The notes under the pieces: generated by a model
Told to the model about the DNA's origin: nothing
Database searches by the model: none
What the model saw: only the letters and a program-made list of their open reading frames with translations
Program-made: the position numbers and the translations under genes
Assembly (NCBI GenBank): GCA_017442225.1
Contig: JAFSAR010000023.1
Span: 1-64,000, forward strand
Direction: 5' to 3'
Length of the DNA: 64,000 bases
Source of the DNA: Clostridia bacterium
GTDB lineage: Bacteria; Bacillota; Clostridia; Oscillospirales; Acutalibacteraceae
In this document: positions 545 to 35,171 of the stretch, in pieces
Position numbering within the stretch: the first letter of the stretch is position 1
Layout: each line of letters begins with the position of its first letter

Positions 545-1195
545 TTATTTATTTGTTGCCTGTCTTTTTTGTTTGAATTCATTAATGGTAATCCATAAGA
601 TACATGCGCTACTCACAAACAATAGAACAAACCACAACCAAGGGTTGCTAGTATCTCCGGTTACGGGTGAAATAATCGGTTTTTTGTCCTCGTCCAACAC
701 TTGAACAGCGAATTGCCAATCTATGTTTTTTTCTACATAAGAAATTTCATTACCGATAGATGTTGGAACTGTTAAAACCACCGAAAGATCTATTTCTCCA
801 TCCTTAGAAACAGTTCCTAACAATACGTATTCATCAAGACCGTTTGTCGCATCTGCTGAACCATGAGAAATAATATTTTCACCAGAATATACTGTTAGTG
901 TTATGTCGTCCGGCAAGTCAACCGCATCATCAATTGACGCTTTCAAAAACAAATTTGTTTTTGAAGAGATGTTCTGACAATATAGTTTGATTTTCTGGGT
1001 CAGCACATCCCCCGGAATCACATCTTTAAATTCTCTAAATAAATCCGTTTCTTCTGTGTTGACAAAAGTAAACGACTTTTCTTTACCATCATAAATTACC
1101 CCAGGTTCTCTTCCAAATGCTAAAGACATTCGAACACCTGAATAAATGAATATGACGCATGAAAGCAAGAGAATTATTAGTTTTATACGTTTCAT
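545..1195 (-). CDS. Cell-wall-anchored SipW-cluster surface protein (SPVTG-type sorting signal)
   Basis: 216 residues. A hydrophobic N-terminal signal (residues 5-28) is followed by a beta-rich ectodomain with the FxDVIPGDxLTQKIxLxC pattern and a VPTSIGNE segment typical of proteins encoded in SipW clusters. The C-terminus has a sorting-signal layout: SPVTGD near residue 178, a hydrophobic stretch (WLWFVLLFVSSACILWI) and a basic tail (KQKRQATNK). The consensus is LPxTG; an S in the first position is a variant. As the last gene of the operon and the only one with a wall-sorting signal, it is inferred to be the basal anchor of the appendage. No active sortase is encoded in this window. Confidence 0.7.
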   Translation of the reverse strand: MKRIKLIILLLSCVIFIYSGVRMSLAFGREPGVIYDGKEKSFTFVNTEETDLFREFKDVIPGDVLTQKIKLYCQNISSKTNLFLKASIDDAVDLPDDITLTVYSGENIISHGSADATNGLDEYVLLGTVSKDGEIDLSVVLTVPTSIGNEISYVEKNIDWQFAVQVLDEDKKPIISPVTGDTSNPWLWFVLLFVSSACILWITINEFKQKRQATNK

Positions 1196-1210
1196 AATGC
1201 CTCCTAACTA

Positions 1211-1777
1211 TCAATCCTTAACAATAGGAGTAATAAAATGATTATTATCCATAGTTACATTCCACGCATCTTCCACAGCCTTTGAAGGAATCGCCTGAAT
1301 AGACTGAAAAATAACATCAACCACAAGTTGTCGGTCAGAAAATGGCGTTGTCTGTTGACAACTTTCAATCAGATTTTTTGTTTTTTCCCCAGCCTTAATG
1401 GGAGCTTTATAATAATAAAAACCATCTTCGCTCTTTACCCAAAACTCACTATTTACATTTAAAGAATAGTCCGTAACTTGAGGGGTTTCGGAAATAATTA
1501 TTCCTTTATCATCCACCCAGCCGATCGAAATGACTGCCCTGACATATGCATCCACATCTCCCTTGTTTATGGCATATACATCTTTTTTTTCTACTCCGTC
1601 AAATGTCTCTGCAAGTTCTATATCAACAGTTCCCACATCAAACTGATTGGTCAAAAGAGCATCTTTCATGAGAAAGGAAATGGTATATTTTATTCCTGCA
1701 CCGGCAACAAATATAAGCACAAGCAAAACAATCAAAGAACGTAGAGAATTACTCTTAAACATATTCTTTATCACCAT
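1211..1777 (-). CDS. SipW-dependent TasA/camelysin-like secreted protein, minor subunit
   Basis: 188 residues. The N-terminus has basic residues, a hydrophobic segment and then the SipW-type tail ISFLMKDALLTNQFDVGTV, which fits the family pattern of a small helix followed by TNxFxxG. The body contains KGDVDAYVRAVISIGW and ends with IQAIPSKAVEDAWN; both are shared by TasA/CalY-related minor proteins. It lacks a sorting signal or transmembrane tail, so it is inferred to be assembled into the fibre or to link adhesin and anchor. It is 15 nt from the anchor gene and 15 nt from the adhesin gene, so co-transcription is likely. Confidence 0.65.
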   Translation of the reverse strand: MVIKNMFKSNSLRSLIVLLVLIFVAGAGIKYTISFLMKDALLTNQFDVGTVDIELAETFDGVEKKDVYAINKGDVDAYVRAVISIGWVDDKGIIISETPQVTDYSLNVNSEFWVKSEDGFYYYKAPIKAGEKTKNLIESCQQTTPFSDRQLVVDVIFQSIQAIPSKAVEDAWNVTMDNNHFITPIVKD

Positions 1778-1792
1778 TATCCCTCCTCTATT

Positions 1793-4700
1793 TTACGGTT
1801 CCACCTTGTTGAAAACATTATTTTCGTAATCATAGGCGCCAAACCAATTTTCTTTTGAAGTATCTCTTTCATTTGTAAAACAGAACTCGATCGGTATAAC
1901 TATAACATCTCCGGTCTGCGTATCCTTTTCTGTTTTCACACTGCCATCTTTTCCAACACTTAAAATAACTTCCGCAGTTTCTCCTACAACTGACTCTCCG
2001 TCTTTAGTAATAGAAGTCTGATATTTCCAAGCCCACGCTTTATCTTCTGTAATACAATAATAACCACAAGGCAGTTCTATTGTGGCTTTACTGCCTGCTT
2101 TTACAATAACAGGATGCCGCTCTCCATTATAACTATTTGTGGAAGCATCATATTCTGTTATGTAAAAGACAAACGGTTCATCAGAATCTGTAAGTTTCTT
2201 TTCGATTGTTACCAATCCACTAAAGTAAAATACAGTAGTATTTCCTTCTGATGCAACGATACTTTGTTCCTGGATAGCCTCGGTTTGAATAATGTGGTCA
2301 CCACTTACAGATATTGCCTTGTCTTCATATAATTTAACATCAACGTCTATATTGGATTCATCAAAAAGTCCGTCTACTTTAAATGTTTTTTCAACCACCT
2401 TTATCAACAACGACGGTTGAGCATACCATTCTTTATCGGAAACAGGATTTCCTGTTTTATCGGTTGCGGGGAAATTCAAATAAGCCTCTAATACTGTTGC
2501 GCTTTCTTCTAAATGAAAACTAAATTGTATATCCGGCTCATTCACCGTAATTACTTCTTGACCATCTACATTATTAATTGTTTCTTGAGTTACAACGGTA
2601 ACGTTTTGTCCATTGGAATCCTTTGCCGTAGCCTCTAAAATAACCGGATACAAGTTCATAACCCTTGTTCCTGCATTCTTCATGCTATCCACAGCCGGTT
2701 CTTGACAGAAATCTTTCCATGCCACTTTGGAACTATCCTCTTGCAGCCAATACCATTCTTTAAAAAGTTGGTTGTCCTTCATAGAGTCAATAATTCTCAA
2801 GAAAGCATCCTGATCTATAGGAACAGTCAATGTCTCTCCGTTTTCCGAAATGTTTTGCACGAAGGATCGTGAAGCACCGTCTATCAGGTAAACACTGTCT
2901 ATTAAATTACCGTTTGTATCAAAGTAATTAATTGTAAATACCTTTTTGTAAACTGCGGTATACACTGTATCTGTCAATAAAACATCACCCGATACAGTGT
3001 ACTCCAACTTATCTGATAAGAGGGATGCTGAAGCTTCGGAAACCGCATCTGTCTGTGTTACATCCCAGCCAGTGTACCAACCCATAAAAGTATATTCTCC
3101 CACAGTCAGATCCGCAGACAACATAACCGATTCGCTAACGGAATCACTCTGCCAGGTTGCTGATCTATGAGCGGTATCGCCAACCTCATCATCTATATTG
3201 GAGTTTACCTGTATTGTAATCTTTTTAAAAACAGGCCAGAATTCTTTAGATTCGTTCACAACATCTTCAGGTGATATCATTGTAGCAGAAGTATCTGTAC
3301 TATACCAATTATCTGCTACGGGTTTCTTATCTGTCCAACCTTCAAAGACATAACCGTTTAATGCGGTCCTCGGTTGTTCTCCCACGAGGTCTCCTGGGTT
3401 TCTGATTTCTACATGTATATCATCAGCAGAAGTGTGATATAGCAGCACAAGCGGTTCGTAATTAGCCACAAACTCATAGTCATGACCTGGTTCAACAATA
3501 TAATCAAATGACCACATTAGGTTTGTTGTGTCTTCCGTTATTGTAACCACTTTTCCGTCAATTACATTCTTTCCAACAGATAATTCTCCTAACAAAATAT
3601 TATCTTTATAAACCGAAATAGACTTTACTTGATATTTTTGTTCTTTGTCGGGAATTACCTGTGTAACATTATCTTCTGCTGTTACAGTAATCGTAACATT
3701 TCCGTTTTCATCAATGTAATTATTTCCGTTATAACCGCTCTGGTAAAATTCAGATGGCTGTAACTTGATTCCCAGTTTTTTAATGACATAATCAGGAATC
3801 GTTACATCATTCACTATACCGTTTTGTTCTGCCACTTCAGGAATGTCTATATTAGCATCCGTTGTAATAGAACCATATTTTACATAAACCGGATATAAAT
3901 CCATGGGCTCTGTACATACTTCTTCCTTGGTCATTACATATGGAAGCGCACGGTTAATATCACTTGTACAATAAGCATCTTCGCTATGGATATCATAAAC
4001 ATGGTTCCATTCGTCCGTAGTTAAAGCATCCTTATTAATCCAACCAATAAAATAATACCCCTGCATATACATATCCGCATCTGACGGTGAAGCGGCCGGA
4101 ACATGCACATAATCTCCCTTTTGCGCGCCACCGCTCAGATATTTATAGGTATATGTTGCTGCTGACACTTGTTCAGGAGAAATAAACACCTTATCCAAAT
4201 ATCTACGGGTGGTAGCTGCTTTTATATTTCCGTCTTTTCCATAGAAATCTACATCTGCGGTAAAGTGTGCAGTATACAAAATATCTGCTGCCGATGTATT
4301 AAGGTTACCACTGTATTCGAATGGGTTGCTGGTGGATAAAGCACGACCTCCAGCTGTATCCGTTCTTTCACGTGACCAAAATACAAAATTATAATCAGAG
4401 CTTGCAATAGTATAACTAACTTCCCAGCCCGCGTCTTTTAATCCATCGCTATCCAACGATGATGCGGCTCCAGGAAAATCGGAATGTATTGTAATAGAAT
4501 AAAGTCCATAACCATCGCCATCTGTTTTTTCATACACTGTTAATGGTTTTTGTATTTTGGTGTTGCTATCTACTTTTACGTCATTTTTATCTGCCCAATG
4601 GGAAAATGTAGCATCAACAAAATCGGGTCCGTCAATATTCTCAAAGCTATCATTATAAGCTTCCCAGCGTTCCGCATAGGTAACTTCATCCTTATACGGT

Positions 4701-7171
4701 CCCTCCAAATCTCCTCCGACTTCTTGCACGCGATATGTAACCAAATACTCCATCTTAGCCACAATTAGCAGTTGGTTACTGTCAGAATCATATTGTGTTA
4801 AATCGTATTCATCTAAATAGTAGCGATATTTATTCGACGAATCTCCAAGCGATTTATTGACTCCTCCTGTATAATCGGGCGCCGTTTTAGATGTGTCGGC
4901 ATACCAACCCAAGAAACGATATCCTTTGTCTTCACCTGCAAAATTCTCTAATTCCACATAGTATCTGACAATACCGGTTTCCGCATCTACTTCCTGTCCT
5001 ACCGAAACGTCGCCAACTTTTAGACCGTCATCTGTACGCGTGGTTACATCTGATGTATGATGACCTTCAATTGCCACCTTAACATTGGTAATCAAATCCG
5101 CAAATACGGGATATAGCTCCATTGGTTTCTCAATCGGATCTCCCGTTTTATAAATTGGGATGTTATTTAAAAGTCCCGAAGTTATTTTTTCATAACCCGG
5201 TGTGCTGTCTGATATGTCTGCCTCTGTTGTCCAACCAACAAATATAGCAGTTGGGCTTGTCGGACACTGTGAATATGTAATGTCAGGCAAAGAGTCCCTA
5301 TAGTCATACCATTCATTCCAAATTTCAGTGCCATCTAATTCGTTAAAAATCACATTTGCCTGAACGTCAGCAATGAACAAATCATTGTCTTTAATAACGG
5401 GTTTATCATCAATAGTACCTGTGATTGTTAACGTTGCATTCGCATTCTCTACGTTAAGATTTGTTATAATATGATTTTCATCCTCTGAAACCTTTGTCTT
5501 CTTCAAGCTTTCCAAATCGTCATAATTTGCAATAGATGTCTCATGAAAATCTGTATTATAATACCATGCATTTACTTTGTAACCCTTGTTTAGTTGCATT
5601 GCAATGCGAATGGTATCTTCCATGGTTGTAAAGCCTTGTGTTGCAGGGAAAAGAGGTCTTGTTGTAGAATTTGGTGCGCCTATCAATTCTGTATAATCAA
5701 TTTCCAATGTTCCTGCATTTGGGAAATCAAAGGTTGCGGCCATAGAGTTTCCATGAACGGGGATACCTTGATAGTAGTCCATAACCCACTTATTAGTATG
5801 GTCATAAACTTCTGACTGAGCGCCGTAATCATAGTAGTTTTCTCTCTTAATCGTTCCAGAGAAATCATAATTACGTCCTTCCCAAAAGGACTGATTAACA
5901 TATGTATCATTGTTCTTTGGTCCGTAATCCGAAGTAGTGGTATCATCTCCTAATACTTTCATCTCTACATCCGGATTCAATTCATATTTAAAATAACTGT
6001 TTGTAGTAGAACCTCCATCAAATTTTGCAACAAGTCCTGAAATATTTTTATTATTTTGAATAATCGGAATCACAAGTACTGCATTATACTGCTTTGATGT
6101 TCCTTCGCCTGCAAAATGGCATCTTTTTATTTCACATCTCGATCCTCTGACTGCTGCTGCAATTCCGCCGATGTGACCGGAGTTGCCACCTCCAACTGAA
6201 ACATAAGTTGCTGTATAAACATCCATATCAGCTGTTGAAAAAGAATCAATGCAAAAAGCACCGTTTTGCATTTCTCCCACCAAACCGCCAGCATACGCCG
6301 TTATACCGCCTAATGCTCCTACAGCTACATCATAATGAATCTTGATTAAGCTTTCGCGTTGAACATCGATTGTTCCGTCAGCTTTTCTTGTAATACTGTC
6401 TTGAACGCGGCTGTATTCCAATACGCCTCCATCAAGATCACCGACAATTCCTCCCAAATACATACCTTTACCACTGATTGCTTCTACACCTGATGTGGTA
6501 TTGGTTGACACGGTACAACCATTGGCTTCACAGTTGTAAATATAGCAGTGTTCGGCTTTGCCAACCAGCACACCGCCAGTAAGACCGCCGTCTGAGCCGA
6601 GGGTTAAAACAACATTATAACAGTAAAGGGTTAGGGTGCTGTTTTGTACCGAGATATTATTAAATACAGTGTTTTGTGCAAGACCTGCAACAATTCCGCC
6701 GCGATAGTCAGCGTCAATTACAGAATCCTTAATAATAAAATCGTGAATATTCGCACCTTTTGTAAAGGCGAACAATCCTGTATCCGCCTCACTTGATGCA
6801 GAAGAACCTGAAATATCATACCTTAAATTAGAAATCGTCTTTCCGTTTCCATCAAATTCTCCCATAAACGGGCTTTCTTCTTTTATATTAAAGGTAAAAG
6901 TCGCTAATCCTAAACTTGCATAGGTTGTTTGCAAGTTTGTATAATCTGCATCCGTAAGAGTGATATCGTTCATCAACCGAATAGTATCGCCTTCAAATGT
7001 TTTTCCGTTCGCCGATAGCACGACTTGCTCCATCAAATCATCGGCATTATAGATTTCTATTATATTACCTTTTGCTAGCGTCTTAGGAATGGATATGGCA
7101 ACGTTCAAAAGGAGAGATACTGCAATCACCAATGCAACCGCACGCAAACTAATTTTAAATTTGCAGTTCAT
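1793..7171 (-). CDS. Giant secreted adhesin: GLUG-like beta-helix, InlB-type repeats, C-terminal Cna-B/prealbumin-like domain
   Basis: 1792 residues. Residues 1-34 form a signal peptide. About 35-430 is rich in GG-V-G turns (GGIVAGLAQN, GGVLVGKAEH, GGIVGDLDGG, GGLVGEMQNG, GGIAAAVRG), which suggests a right-handed beta-helix of the GLUG type. About 640-1590 has several InlB/Flg_new-like repeats recognised by FxGW and LYPVF/V elements (IFVGWT, RFLGWYAD, YFIGWIN, VFEGWTD, TFMGWYTG). About 1645-1792 resembles a prealbumin-like or Cna-B fold and ends NERDTSKENWFGAYDYENN. There is no LPxTG motif and no terminal membrane segment. Inference: it is the adhesive tip of a TasA-type fibre, held by its terminal domain rather than by a sortase. 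The ligand is unknown. Confidence 0.75.
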   Translation of the reverse strand: MNCKFKISLRAVALVIAVSLLLNVAISIPKTLAKGNIIEIYNADDLMEQVVLSANGKTFEGDTIRLMNDITLTDADYTNLQTTYASLGLATFTFNIKEESPFMGEFDGNGKTISNLRYDISGSSASSEADTGLFAFTKGANIHDFIIKDSVIDADYRGGIVAGLAQNTVFNNISVQNSTLTLYCYNVVLTLGSDGGLTGGVLVGKAEHCYIYNCEANGCTVSTNTTSGVEAISGKGMYLGGIVGDLDGGVLEYSRVQDSITRKADGTIDVQRESLIKIHYDVAVGALGGITAYAGGLVGEMQNGAFCIDSFSTADMDVYTATYVSVGGGNSGHIGGIAAAVRGSRCEIKRCHFAGEGTSKQYNAVLVIPIIQNNKNISGLVAKFDGGSTTNSYFKYELNPDVEMKVLGDDTTTSDYGPKNNDTYVNQSFWEGRNYDFSGTIKRENYYDYGAQSEVYDHTNKWVMDYYQGIPVHGNSMAATFDFPNAGTLEIDYTELIGAPNSTTRPLFPATQGFTTMEDTIRIAMQLNKGYKVNAWYYNTDFHETSIANYDDLESLKKTKVSEDENHIITNLNVENANATLTITGTIDDKPVIKDNDLFIADVQANVIFNELDGTEIWNEWYDYRDSLPDITYSQCPTSPTAIFVGWTTEADISDSTPGYEKITSGLLNNIPIYKTGDPIEKPMELYPVFADLITNVKVAIEGHHTSDVTTRTDDGLKVGDVSVGQEVDAETGIVRYYVELENFAGEDKGYRFLGWYADTSKTAPDYTGGVNKSLGDSSNKYRYYLDEYDLTQYDSDSNQLLIVAKMEYLVTYRVQEVGGDLEGPYKDEVTYAERWEAYNDSFENIDGPDFVDATFSHWADKNDVKVDSNTKIQKPLTVYEKTDGDGYGLYSITIHSDFPGAASSLDSDGLKDAGWEVSYTIASSDYNFVFWSRERTDTAGGRALSTSNPFEYSGNLNTSAADILYTAHFTADVDFYGKDGNIKAATTRRYLDKVFISPEQVSAATYTYKYLSGGAQKGDYVHVPAASPSDADMYMQGYYFIGWINKDALTTDEWNHVYDIHSEDAYCTSDINRALPYVMTKEEVCTEPMDLYPVYVKYGSITTDANIDIPEVAEQNGIVNDVTIPDYVIKKLGIKLQPSEFYQSGYNGNNYIDENGNVTITVTAEDNVTQVIPDKEQKYQVKSISVYKDNILLGELSVGKNVIDGKVVTITEDTTNLMWSFDYIVEPGHDYEFVANYEPLVLLYHTSADDIHVEIRNPGDLVGEQPRTALNGYVFEGWTDKKPVADNWYSTDTSATMISPEDVVNESKEFWPVFKKITIQVNSNIDDEVGDTAHRSATWQSDSVSESVMLSADLTVGEYTFMGWYTGWDVTQTDAVSEASASLLSDKLEYTVSGDVLLTDTVYTAVYKKVFTINYFDTNGNLIDSVYLIDGASRSFVQNISENGETLTVPIDQDAFLRIIDSMKDNQLFKEWYWLQEDSSKVAWKDFCQEPAVDSMKNAGTRVMNLYPVILEATAKDSNGQNVTVVTQETINNVDGQEVITVNEPDIQFSFHLEESATVLEAYLNFPATDKTGNPVSDKEWYAQPSLLIKVVEKTFKVDGLFDESNIDVDVKLYEDKAISVSGDHIIQTEAIQEQSIVASEGNTTVFYFSGLVTIEKKLTDSDEPFVFYITEYDASTNSYNGERHPVIVKAGSKATIELPCGYYCITEDKAWAWKYQTSITKDGESVVGETAEVILSVGKDGSVKTEKDTQTGDVIVIPIEFCFTNERDTSKENWFGAYDYENNVFNKVEP

Positions 7172-7185
7172 CTAATTCCTCCTTA

Positions 7186-7782
7186 CTATTCGGGCCATCC
7201 TGCCACGTCTAATACATTTGTTGTATCTTGATGTTCACTCTGTACGCCTTGCGCATAAAAGTTAATATCAAATGTGCTGCCAGGATATCTCGTTGTTATT
7301 TGATTAGCATCAAATACAAGTTCATCCAACAAGAGCTCCGACACTTCATCTGGTTCTAAAATATGTAAGTAATAGCACCAACCATCTTTATATATCCAAT
7401 CTGATGTATTTATCTCATAATCCGTAAATGATGCTATATCGATTTGCTTTCCCTGACAATCTGTTCCTTTGAATTGAGGCTGTACACGAACATAAAGTGA
7501 ATGCGAACCCGTGTTTTTTACTCGGATAATACGGCTTTGTACAGATTGTGTTGCAATATTTGCAGCCTCTTTTGAGTCAAATGTTTCCTCTTGTCCTTGC
7601 TCGTTTAAGCTAGTTTGAATGATTTTTAGGCCAACTCCACCGAAATCAATATAATTTTCTGCTTTAGTTTCGGCTAAAAAAGCAGCAAGGGTTCCGGGCA
7701 ACCATAAAAGCATCACTATAAGAATTATAATTATTAATAAGAAAACATTTTTTCGGTTTATTAAAATATGTTTTTTATCCAT
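7186..7782 (-). CDS. SipW-dependent secreted protein, TasA/CalY-like
   Basis: 198 residues. A basic N-terminus and long hydrophobic core lead to a SipW-type end, PGTLAAFLAETKAENYIDFG, matching the family pattern of G-T-x-A-x-L/F-x-E/D before the mature part. The body has VKNTGSHSLYVRVQPQF and a C-terminal FYAQGVQSE, as in accessory camelysin-like proteins. It lies between the major-subunit gene and the adhesin gene, separated from the former by 160 nt with two hairpins. It is inferred to join adhesin and fibre or to nucleate assembly; the exact role is unknown. Confidence 0.65.
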   Translation of the reverse strand: MDKKHILINRKNVFLLIIIILIVMLLWLPGTLAAFLAETKAENYIDFGGVGLKIIQTSLNEQGQEETFDSKEAANIATQSVQSRIIRVKNTGSHSLYVRVQPQFKGTDCQGKQIDIASFTDYEINTSDWIYKDGWCYYLHILEPDEVSELLLDELVFDANQITTRYPGSTFDINFYAQGVQSEHQDTTNVLDVAGWPE

Positions 7783-7812
7783 TTCTAAACCTCCTGCAAA
7801 CTTTTTGATTAT

Positions 7813-7852
7813 GATAAGAAAGCAACCATTTTATAATGGTTGCTTTCTTATC
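7813..7852 (-). promoter_or_regulatory. 18-bp perfect hairpin in the SipW operon
   Basis: The arms GATAAGAAAGCAACCATT (7813-7830) and AATGGTTGCTTTCTTATC (7835-7852) match perfectly around a TTAT loop. No T-run follows on either strand. It lies after the major-subunit gene, where a processing or stability element could set subunit ratios. Confidence 0.55.
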
Positions 7853-7874
7853 GCAACCAACGAATAGGAAATTA

Positions 7875-7901
7875 CACAGGGGGGGCATCAGCCCCCCAGT
7901 G
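7875..7901 (-). promoter_or_regulatory. GC-rich hairpin directly after the TasA-like gene (partial terminator candidate)
   Basis: GGGGGGC-ATCA-GCCCCCC is extended by CAC/GTG arms. It is the strongest short stem in the operon and lies about 40 nt beyond the stop codon of the major subunit. Read on the minus strand it is followed by TGTGTAATTT, a poor T-tract, so read-through seems likely. Confidence 0.5.
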
Positions 7902-7941
7902 CAATATTTATGTTTTAAGAAGATGGCATTTCTTTTGTCGA

Positions 7942-8631
7942 TTATTTATTGTATTCTGCAAGGGCTCCTGTTTCTGCTTCTGCATACAAATCGGTAACTC
8001 CATCACCGCTTGTTGATTGATGAATATAACAGAATACAACCATGTCACCGGCTTCTATGGTAGTTGCATCTGTATCAACTGTTACAGCATCAAAAAGGGG
8101 CTCTGTTGTCCATGTAGAATCGTTGTCTTTGCCTACCAAAGCAAGTGGAGCACCGGAAGCATCGCACCATACATAAAGTGCAGATTTACCATCGGCTGCT
8201 GAGGTTCCGCTAACTTCTACCCAGCCGCAGTTTGTTCCGTCGGGAGCATTTACGGTATATTCGAGCACTTTGGTTGCGTCATTAGCCCATGCAAAAACAT
8301 AAGAATCTTCAGATTTAGGTCCAATACCTACAAAAGGATCTTTATCGAAGGTTGCACCTGGAAGCATTTTATGTTCTGCTGTAGGATCCCACTTTGGTTC
8401 GTAGAGATTGCCGTCCAACTGATCTGTTCCATCTGAGTTGCCCGGATCTTCGGGATCTATTGTTGGATCATTTGGCTCATAAGGATTTGTGATATTTCCT
8501 GCAGTAAATGAGTTTGTTACACTATCTGTTGCTGTTAACCACGCAATTGTTCCCATAATAGTTCCTACTGTTAATACTAAAGCTAAAAGAACTAAAAGAA
8601 GAGACTTTTTGCTTGTTTTCTTTTTATTCAT
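7942..8631 (-). CDS. TasA/CalY-like major fibre subunit (SipW substrate)
   Basis: 229 residues. The N-terminus is KKKTSKKS plus a hydrophobic core and then MGTIAWLTATDSVTNSFTAG, a textbook SipW-dependent signal (G-T-x-A-x-L-T-x-x-x-x-x-T-N-x-F-x-x-G). A Pro/Asp-rich linker (NDPTIDPEDPGNSDGTDQ) precedes a domain with KMLPGATFDKDPFVG and SEDSYVFAW, as in TasA/camelysin relatives of gut Clostridia. TasA forms extracellular fibres in Bacillus after SipW cleavage; the same role is inferred here. The ATG overlaps the sipW stop by one base (TAATG), so the two are translationally coupled. The hairpins that follow suggest it is made in excess over downstream genes. Confidence 0.8.
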   Translation of the reverse strand: MNKKKTSKKSLLLVLLALVLTVGTIMGTIAWLTATDSVTNSFTAGNITNPYEPNDPTIDPEDPGNSDGTDQLDGNLYEPKWDPTAEHKMLPGATFDKDPFVGIGPKSEDSYVFAWANDATKVLEYTVNAPDGTNCGWVEVSGTSAADGKSALYVWCDASGAPLALVGKDNDSTWTTEPLFDAVTVDTDATTIEAGDMVVFCYIHQSTSGDGVTDLYAEAETGALAEYNK

Positions 8632-9170
8632 TATGTATTCTCCTTATCGGTAAATTTCCCTTTACGGGCTGTTTCGGGTTGTGGTATCAAATCTACAATG
8701 ATTGATATTACAACAACGACAATAATTGCGGCTATTAATATGTAACAACCTGGTGCCGTTGTGCAAAACCGATTTACGTTTCCTAATACTGGAATGCAAA
8801 AATTCGTTTTCCCTATTAGGTAGTTATAATATACTGGTTCCGCATCATGTAAGATTTTGCCATCTTCATCAAAATTATTAATTCCCTGTGTGCGAAACAA
8901 TCGATTTTTTATATCTACCTCGTACACTTGATGTGTTGCCACAATGTTAGTATCCTTTAAATAAAATGTGATAGTATCTCCTACCTTTATCTCCGACGGG
9001 TTCACTTTCTCTACATAAACCAAACTGCCCACCGGAAATTCAGGCTCCATGCTTCCACTTGTAACCACATATGTTTTAATTCCAAACAAATGCGGAATAT
9101 ACATCACCGCAACAAGTAGAAGTGTTACTACCACACAAATACTAACAAAAAAATTCCATATTTTTTTAAT
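8631..9170 (-). CDS. sipW: SipW-type (ER-type) signal peptidase I, apparent ATT start
   Basis: The protein has TSGSMEPEFPVGSLV with the catalytic Ser, followed by VGDTITFYL and IVATHQVYEV, where His replaces the Lys of ordinary bacterial signal peptidases. This is the S26B, SipW-like class. N- and C-terminal hydrophobic helices flank the domain. The first standard start is GTG at 9134, but it has no ribosome binding site and would remove the basic N-terminus. An ideal GGAGG (9178-9182) lies 7 nt before an in-frame ATT at 9170, giving KKIWNFFVSICVVVTLLL. The ATT start is therefore preferred. First gene of the operon; it should process the SipW-type subunits made downstream. Confidence 0.75.
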   Translation of the reverse strand: MKKIWNFFVSICVVVTLLLVAVMYIPHLFGIKTYVVTSGSMEPEFPVGSLVYVEKVNPSEIKVGDTITFYLKDTNIVATHQVYEVDIKNRLFRTQGINNFDEDGKILHDAEPVYYNYLIGKTNFCIPVLGNVNRFCTTAPGCYILIAAIIVVVVISIIVDLIPQPETARKGKFTDKENT

Positions 9171-9479: not shown

Positions 9480-9505
9480 AAAAAAAAGAGCAGATTTCTC
9501 TGCTC
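9480..9505 (-). terminator. Intrinsic terminator upstream of the SipW promoter
   Basis: On the minus strand GAGCAGA-GAAA-TCTGCTC is followed by eight T. It insulates the SipW promoter from minus-strand transcription. No intact gene lies directly upstream for it to serve. Confidence 0.75.
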
Positions 9506-34253: not shown

Positions 34254-35171
34254 ATGGCAGGAAAACACACAAAAAGTTTTTTTGATTTCAGAAAAAGCGT
34301 CTACGCTCCGTCGCCCGTTATCAGATCGAACGCCCGTGCGCCGCTTTCTCTACCCTTTAAAATAATAATAATCGCGCTTGTGGCGTCGCTTGTTTTATCG
34401 TCGGTTTTGGTGGGTAACTTTTTTATGCAGGGCAGCTCTCACAAAAAGCTGTTAAATACCGCTGCCGAAACCTTCGCGTCGTTTAACAGCGACGACGCGC
34501 TTAAAATACTTGCCGAGCAAAACGGGGATATAAAGGGTTGGCTTAAGATAGAGGGCGCGGATATCGACTGCGCCGTCTGTCAGAGCGACGACGATACTTT
34601 TTATATAAATCATAACCAGCTTGGTAAAAAAAGCCGTTACGGCGCGCTGTTTTTATCAAAAGACGACAGCTTTGAAAGACGCGGCAACGACCGCAATATT
34701 GTGATTTTTGGCAACAATATGAAAAACGGCACAATGTTTGGCAGTCTTAAAAAATACCGAAACATCAATTTTTACAAGCAAAATCCCTTTATCGAGCTTT
34801 ATTTTGACGACGAGGTTCAGAAATACGCAGTATTTTCCGTGATGCTTGTATCCTCATACGCTGATGATAGCGGAGAAATTTACAAGCCGTACAAAAGTCA
34901 TTTTGCAGATGAAAACGACTTCAGCCTTTGGGCAGAAGAAACCTATGCTCGCAGCCTTATAAACACAACCGTTACGGCAAAGTACGGTGACGATTTTTTG
35001 ACTCTTGTAACCGTTGCCGATGATTTCGACGGTGCGAGGCTTGTGGTTATGGCAAAAAAACTTACCGATTGGGACTCAAATCACATCGACGTGTCGAATT
35101 CTAAAGTAAACGCCAAAATTAAATATCCGAAAATTTGGTATGACACACGCGGTCTTGAATATCCGCATTAA
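34254..35171 (+). CDS. Class B sortase homologue lacking the catalytic His and Cys
   Basis: 305 residues. A transmembrane segment (residues 36-56) is followed by a sortase B-like domain: GWLKIEGADIDCAVCQ, TFYINHNQLGKKSRYGALFL, VIFGNNMKNGTMFGSLKKY and FLTLVTVADDFDGARLVVMA. In active SrtB the two last motifs read GHNM and TLSTC. Here His is Asn154 and Cys is Val254; only the Arg (Arg262) remains. The fold is kept, so transpeptidation seems impossible but peptide or wall binding is possible. It lies in the iscS-thiI operon, next to a membrane-tethered MoCF-like protein and a polyprenyl-phosphate transporter. Confidence 0.8.
   Translation: MAGKHTKSFFDFRKSVYAPSPVIRSNARAPLSLPFKIIIIALVASLVLSSVLVGNFFMQGSSHKKLLNTAAETFASFNSDDALKILAEQNGDIKGWLKIEGADIDCAVCQSDDDTFYINHNQLGKKSRYGALFLSKDDSFERRGNDRNIVIFGNNMKNGTMFGSLKKYRNINFYKQNPFIELYFDDEVQKYAVFSVMLVSSYADDSGEIYKPYKSHFADENDFSLWAEETYARSLINTTVTAKYGDDFLTLVTVADDFDGARLVVMAKKLTDWDSNHIDVSNSKVNAKIKYPKIWYDTRGLEYPH

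Follow-up and report, generated by a model that had tools for sequence, protein, structure and literature searches.

In Clostridium perfringens, the sipW-bsaABCRSD operon is encoded with srtB alongside, and a terminator after bsaA produces a short sipW-bsaA transcript in addition to a read-through transcript of the operon (PMC7395162). In Bacillus subtilis, TasA assembles by means of an N-terminal donor strand (PMC9674648). Here we describe a six-gene operon at positions 545 to 9170 of the window, by which we mean the whole 64,000-nucleotide stretch that was analyzed (assembly GCA_017442225.1 of a Clostridia bacterium of the gut, contig JAFSAR010000023.1, positions 1 to 64,000). A first-pass annotation had read the region as six genes in one direction for a SipW-dependent appendage and had taken Bacillus tapA-sipW-tasA as its sole comparison. 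That comparison was too narrow, given the C. perfringens operon (PMC7395162), and the interpretation as a whole is partly supported. We think it probable that the operon encodes a SipW-dependent surface fiber whose base is anchored to the wall and whose adhesin can be exchanged.

All six open reading frames (ORFs) were verified on the minus strand of the window, where they are compactly arranged as an operon, and the features below lie on that strand unless marked otherwise. We define the genes by working labels, in order of transcription, as sipW, shaft, linkA, adhesin, linkB, and anchor. sipW and shaft overlap by 1 nucleotide (nt), 159 nt separate shaft from linkA, and the later gaps are 14 nt (linkA/adhesin), 15 nt (adhesin/linkB), and 15 nt (linkB/anchor). 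A terminator scan found a hairpin with a 15-bp stem and a T-rich flank at 500 to 537, which is the probable end of the operon. Comparison with an 88%-identical sister locus (L128), taken from a water deer colon metagenome-assembled genome (MAG), gave ratios of nonsynonymous to synonymous substitution (dN/dS) of 0.17 to 0.19 for every shared gene. We conclude that, by this measure, the shared genes are under purifying selection.

The sipW gene extends from 8631 to 9170. Its product scored 84.9 bits against TIGR02228 (cut-off, 51.85) and only 70.7 bits against the Bacillus SipW model NF046067 (cut-off, 190), and a Ser-His pair can be read in the serine of SGSMEP and the histidine of ATH. We conclude that its sequence is that of a signal peptidase of the SipW/archaeal-endoplasmic reticulum type, in keeping with the first-pass annotation. 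A genus-wide TIGR02228 scan also picked up numerous ordinary signal peptidases, as well as other SipW loci, and both were excluded. The gene has no ATG, and its first ordinary in-frame start is a GTG at 9134, which would give a product of 167 amino acids (aa) from 8631 to 9134. An ATT at 9170 to 9168 lies seven bases after an AGGAGG (9183 to 9178) and is retained in the sister locus. ATT is the probable start, with the GTG as a fallback, and an ATT start explains why the gene had been annotated from 9170. We note that ATT is a very rare start codon, and it might reduce or regulate SipW production.

The second gene encodes the candidate shaft subunit (7942 to 8631; 229 aa), in which a SipW-type signal (26.1 bits against TIGR04088; cut-off, 19) is followed by the segment VTNSFTAGNI. 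Two further SipW-type proteins had been proposed and are indeed present as candidate minor subunits with matches, below the cut-off, to the BsaA family TIGR04090: linkA (7186 to 7782; 198 aa), which ends in VAGWPE, and linkB (1211 to 1777; 188 aa). With their signal peptides removed, the three proteins are mutually homologous (hhalign, 99.4 to 99.7%; E at most 3.5e-21), and none has a sorting signal at its C terminus. A PDB sequence search with the mixed shaft alignment (A2) returned chance matches only. We conclude that, judged by sequence, the shaft protein belongs to a wider BsaA-like group of SipW-type proteins and is nearer to C. perfringens BsaA than to TasA, such that "TasA-like" is too strong a description.

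The 159-nt gap between shaft and the rest of the operon (7783 to 7941) contains two strong hairpins, one with a GC stem (7897 to 7879) and one with an 18-bp stem (7852 to 7813). At the equivalent position, 10 of 13 relatives have a hairpin at least as strong as -16.9 kcal/mol. The combination of a long gap and a hairpin was confined to that position, as the subsequent gaps in relatives ranged from -43 to 22 nt. By analogy with C. perfringens, the hairpins probably act as a partial terminator that yields more shaft than minor subunits. Because the layout matches the terminator and read-through of that operon, many copies of the shaft per minor subunit are suggested.

The adhesin gene (1793 to 7171) encodes a giant secreted protein of 1792 aa with an ordinary signal peptide that ends in TLA before KGN. 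The protein had been called a beta-helix/InlB-repeat adhesin, and the InlB half of that call was confirmed by Listeria-Bacteroides repeats (PF09479, 31.2 bits; cut-off, 27). The front end, by contrast, matched no family in a Pfam search; its GG-rich repeats (5882 to 7066, by sequence inspection) suggest a beta-helix when read by eye, and this payload region differs between loci. At the other end lies a conserved SpaA/DUF7601/DUF5979-like domain (1796 to 2290; alignment A4 and Pfam on relatives) with a W-(S/A)-W motif, in fuller form W-S-W-R-Y among the adhesins, which in a PDB profile search weakly matched the pilus Ancillary protein 1 (E, 0.016). The domain closes with a conserved tail, NWFGAYDYENNVFNKVEP (1796 to 1849), with a consensus of about W-L-x-G-x(5-7)-N-x-F, a pattern present in 19 of the 27 adhesins of such cassettes; among the other long ORFs, 25 of 303 matched it. 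The tail is a possible docking element.

Only the last ~130 residues are common to the adhesins across loci (alignment A4). The front end is a VWA region in six loci (L075, L118, L119, L122, L140, and L171), BNR and InlB repeats in L127, Chlam_PMP repeats in L100, and MucBP and InlB repeats in L138. The adhesin of the window has no sorting signal of its own, nor does any adhesin of the compared loci, and therefore the protein would be held by another component of the operon. We note that the BNR/sialidase-like payload of L127 (3554 to 9913 of that locus) sits on the same chassis and would make the appendage enzymatic.

The anchor (545 to 1195; 216 aa) is the one protein of the operon with a wall-sorting signal, as had been claimed. 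An ordinary signal peptide that ends in SLA before FG is followed by a TasA/AbpA-like domain, SPVTGD (SPSTGD in the sister locus), a hydrophobic membrane stretch, and a KQKRQ tail. Unlike the shaft and linkers, the anchor has neither a SipW-type signal nor the strand behind such a signal. In an alignment of 14 relatives (A1), a domain common to all has a PGD motif that does not vary and lies ahead of P-x-T-G-type sorting signals, which across the family read LPSTG, IPKTG, LPKTG, PPQTG, and SPVTG. Without signal peptides, the anchor also aligned with linkA (hhalign, 92.8%; E, 3.9e-7).

An AlphaFold 2 (AF2) model of the anchor had a predicted local distance difference test score (pLDDT) of 82. 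Its top solved match was 7ueg, a subunit of the Pyrobaculum bundling pilus (Z, 8.6; root-mean-square deviation [rmsd], 3.2 over 126), and TasA followed closely (5of1, Z 8.5, rmsd 3.1 over 131; 8aur, Z 7.8). Unrelated structures gave a Z of 7.0 or less, and a Z of ~8 can also reflect common arrangements. TasA was among the few matches of the anchor's sequence profile, at an E of 0.12 that is not significant alone. We conclude that the anchor domain is predicted to fold like TasA and the subunits of archaeal bundling pili. Because both top-matching families are donor-strand filaments and TasA recurs among the profile matches, the anchor itself is probably a fiber-type subunit.

SrtB of Clostridioides difficile cleaves SPKTG, PPKTG, SPSTG, and SPQTG but not LPETG or NPQTN (PMC4155245). 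The anchor carries the sequence features of a class B sortase substrate: an (S/P)PXTG motif, a membrane stretch, a positive tail, and an N-terminal signal. In a genome-wide search for x-P-x-T-G-D, the true sorting signals numbered three: the SPVTGD of the anchor, plus SPKTGD and SPDTGD. As all three fit the C. difficile motif, a class B substrate is the simplest reading, and by its motif the anchor is very probably processed by the general class B sortase of this genome. Two genes of the genome encode a sortase fold; both are class B-like, and both lie away from the operon. One is intact (C22:138895-139425), with IYGHNM and TLSTCT motifs; it exceeds the PF04203 cut-off, and its best family is TIGR03064 at 121 bits, which is below the cut-off of 153.75. 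The other lies in the window at 34254 to 35171 on the plus strand, immediately after a ThiI-like gene, and looks degenerate in sequence, with the catalytic Cys and His replaced (LTLVTVADD and VIFGNNM).

The first-pass annotation had inferred a fiber built without a dedicated pilin sortase. That statement holds for class C: none was found among the two sortase matches of a genome that is missing a few percent, and no sortase adjoining the loci of relatives reached the class C cut-off (NF033745, 160), so that a constant pilin-sortase neighbor was not borne out. It does not hold for sortases at large, as a class B or unclassified sortase follows the anchor in several relatives. A sortase lies right after the anchor in L138, L191, and L196 (class B, over cut-off) and in L100, L140, L205, and L216 (below every class cut-off), and a class B sortase lies 1.3 kb from the anchor in L127. 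Sortases in the loci of relatives were labeled with two small seed models that may miss divergent ones, with PF04203 searched genome-wide in 13 genomes. From these positions, a dedicated anchoring sortase is sometimes coencoded.

A classical pilus polymerized by a class C sortase would likewise have a subunit with a sorting signal, and the adhesin C-terminal domain is SpaA-like and, weakly, like a pilus tip protein. Nonetheless, the sortases adjacent to relatives' anchors either belong to class B or reach no class cut-off at all, and those of the genome are one intact class B enzyme and one degenerate gene. With no class C enzyme found in the recovered part of the genome and no sorting signals on the shaft, linkers, or adhesin, we rejected this reading as highly improbable.

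The gene-order search that the first-pass annotation had called for recovered the same order elsewhere. The full order (sipW, one or more shaft genes, linkA, adhesin, linkB, and anchor) occurs in the window and in 13 other distinct loci, mostly of gut Clostridia (L075, L118, L119, L127, L140, L150, L165, L167, L169, L171, L191, L194, and L205), and the carriers include the cultured Clostridium porci (L140) and an Erysipelotrichaceae bacterium. A scan of representative genomes returned 138 anchor relatives, of which 80 were retrieved, and gene calling located 59 anchors. All 38 anchors with at least 7 kb of upstream sequence had SipW-type neighbors, and sipW itself was within reach of 31. Among the seven without it, L151 gained sipW when its flank was extended (L127). 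In a class-wide sample of 391 genomes, close anchor relatives (at least 140 bits) were found in 7 genomes at nine loci, and the nine strongest matches to the adhesin C-terminal domain all fell inside such loci or close variants. Occurrence of the adhesin and anchor independently of SipW genes was thus not borne out.

A cluster of chance neighbors or a decaying remnant might be expected to show the patchy distribution seen in the genus, and in the sister locus L128 a stretch that runs from shaft into adhesin is missing. This reading is contradicted by dN/dS and by the recurrence of the gene order, as well as by the intact frames; we regard it as the least probable of the alternatives and rejected it. 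With respect to L128 itself, window positions ~3064 to 8287 are missing around its position 8052, where shaft residue ~119 runs into adhesin residue 1371, the two sides overlapping by 3 bp. The junction may be a true deletion, a switch, or a fault of MAG assembly. Homology with L128 stops ~320 bp upstream of sipW (from window position 9490 upward), beyond which a thioredoxin gene flanks the window operon, and germination protease and SpoIIP-like genes lie further out in L128. Because homology breaks off and the flanking genes differ, a move of either the operon or its flank is indicated.

A second arrangement lacks a separate adhesin and instead encodes large proteins in which shaft-type domains are fused, followed by linkA and the anchor. 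In L131, L153, L160, L187, and L200, which represent this second locus type, further SipW-type proteins are encoded after the anchor. Outside the Clostridia, an anchor with SipW-type genes was seen in records that bear the name Candidatus Saccharibacteria and also in Slackia piriformis (L185, L197, L198, and L132).

The comparison of arrangements suggests a partner for each linker. linkA directly precedes the anchor in adhesin-free loci and is, for that reason, the likely partner of the anchor. In nearly all relatives linkB comes after the adhesin gene, including loci that have no anchor or have it at another place (L077, L101, L106, L112, and L176), and among 87 further loci an adhesin was present in 17 of the 22 with linkB versus 14 of the 65 without. 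linkB is therefore the likely partner of the adhesin. From these partners we infer the order wall, anchor, linkA, shaft, linkB, and adhesin. The literal gene order, shaft-linkA-adhesin-linkB-anchor, could instead place the adhesin at the base beside the anchor through linkB, with the shaft growing outward from linkA and the fiber extending past the adhesin. We consider a basal adhesin unlikely, since linkA adjoins the anchor when the adhesin is missing and linkB accompanies the adhesin.

Assembly of a fiber with a terminal adhesin could proceed as follows. The SipW peptidase would free the shaft and two linkers, exposing an N-terminal strand in each, and the subunits would chain by donor-strand exchange after the manner of B. 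subtilis TasA. The shaft would be joined by linkB to the adhesin, at its conserved C-terminal domain and tail, and by linkA to the anchor, at its predicted TasA-fold domain. The anchor, being without a SipW-type signal and strand, would perhaps be a receiver only and end the chain at the cell, where a class B sortase would cut SPVTGD and link the anchor to the wall. The giant protein would then confer adhesion.

Alternatively, the operon could be a secreted biofilm-matrix operon like sipW-bsaABCRSD of C. perfringens, with loose polymers and a giant protein that is coexpressed but unmounted. The linkers match the BsaA family, below its cut-off, and BsaA polymers are mainly extracellular with srtB being dispensable (PMC7395162). 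Against a loose matrix, an anchor with a sorting signal is kept in nearly all relatives, and no giant adhesin has been described for the C. perfringens operon. Moreover, the adhesin C-terminal domain, tail, and linkB travel together while the front end varies, which suggests that the adhesin is physically docked. We regard the matrix reading as the strongest competitor, with perhaps a quarter of the weight.

Several points weigh against an anchored fiber with a mounted adhesin. PF12389 (TasA/camelysin, Peptidase_M73) had no match anywhere in the genome, whereas the B. subtilis control was detected. The predicted structure of the shaft, a mediocre model (pLDDT, 74), did not have TasA among its listed matches, for which the mixed alignment A2 may be the cause. 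Of the "TasA-like major subunit" of the first-pass annotation, the SipW-type signal stands, and the likeness to TasA lacks support at the level of protein family. Scores against TIGR04090 were 36.1 bits for linkB and 22.6 bits for linkA, both below the cut-off of 60, which some relatives elsewhere in the class do pass. The anchor is present in only 6 of 70 genomes of the genus. Finally, the counts that tie linkB to the adhesin are uncorrected for shared ancestry, with some loci sharing the full order; the models that label the linkers were trained on the adhesin-bearing order; and the anchor profile used to label loci is broad.

An anchored fiber with an exchangeable tip would matter beyond this genome. 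Because the same chassis occurs with different adhesins in many relatives, it seems to represent a modular kind of Gram-positive appendage not described before, and an open full-text literature search, with subscription journals outside its coverage, found no described adhesin-bearing SipW locus. Tentatively, and at somewhat less than even chance, we propose a separate kind: a SipW donor-strand fiber with a TasA-fold base fixed by sortase B and a tip of swappable adhesins or enzymes held through a docking domain and linker. For the present the operon is a variant of the SipW/TasA/BsaA systems, with a reasonable chance of coming to count as a class of its own if filaments are seen. Little is understood about surface adhesion in uncultured gut Clostridia, and one conserved chassis would explain the very different adhesins that many of them display. 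Such a fiber would combine donor-strand assembly and sortase anchoring, two logics treated as separate. In function it would correspond to chaperone-usher pili, but lacking an usher, and to sortase pili, but lacking a pilin sortase. A TasA-fold base with a sorting signal would also answer how TasA-type fibers stay on the cell, an answer made testable by the cultured carrier C. porci.

Each known system shares part of this design. The Pyrobaculum bundling pilus (7ueg) is the closest structural match to the anchor model but is archaeal and without a sortase. Class C sortase pili of Gram-positive cocci have the same division into shaft, adhesin, and anchored base, and the end domain of Ancillary protein 1 (PDB 2xi9/4bug) is weakly resembled by the adhesin C-terminal domain, whereas the window operon has neither a class C sortase nor sorting signals on shaft or adhesin. 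TasA/CalY/CapP of Bacillus cereus likewise comprises several SipW-type subunits and an accessory protein, and polymerization there is described as sortase independent, but no giant adhesin or sortase-type anchor is described (PMC13082335). With tapA-sipW-tasA of B. subtilis, the window operon has in common SipW-processed subunits, the TasA fold predicted in the anchor, and minor subunits thought to occupy the chain ends (PMC9674648, PMC10151520); it differs in having no TapA or PF12389 match, a proposed attachment to the wall by a sorting signal, and a giant adhesin. Like the C. perfringens operon, it places sipW first and a SipW-dependent polymer gene, here a candidate one, second; a terminator, probable in the window, comes next, with read-through into genes for minor secreted proteins (PMC7395162). 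Both have BsaA-related minor subunits, and C. perfringens has a class B sortase gene nearby. The window operon is without the two-component genes, and C. perfringens srtB is dispensable for BsaA polymers. What the window operon adds to the C. perfringens plan is twofold: a giant adhesin whose C-terminal module is conserved, and an anchor that pairs a predicted TasA fold with a sorting signal.

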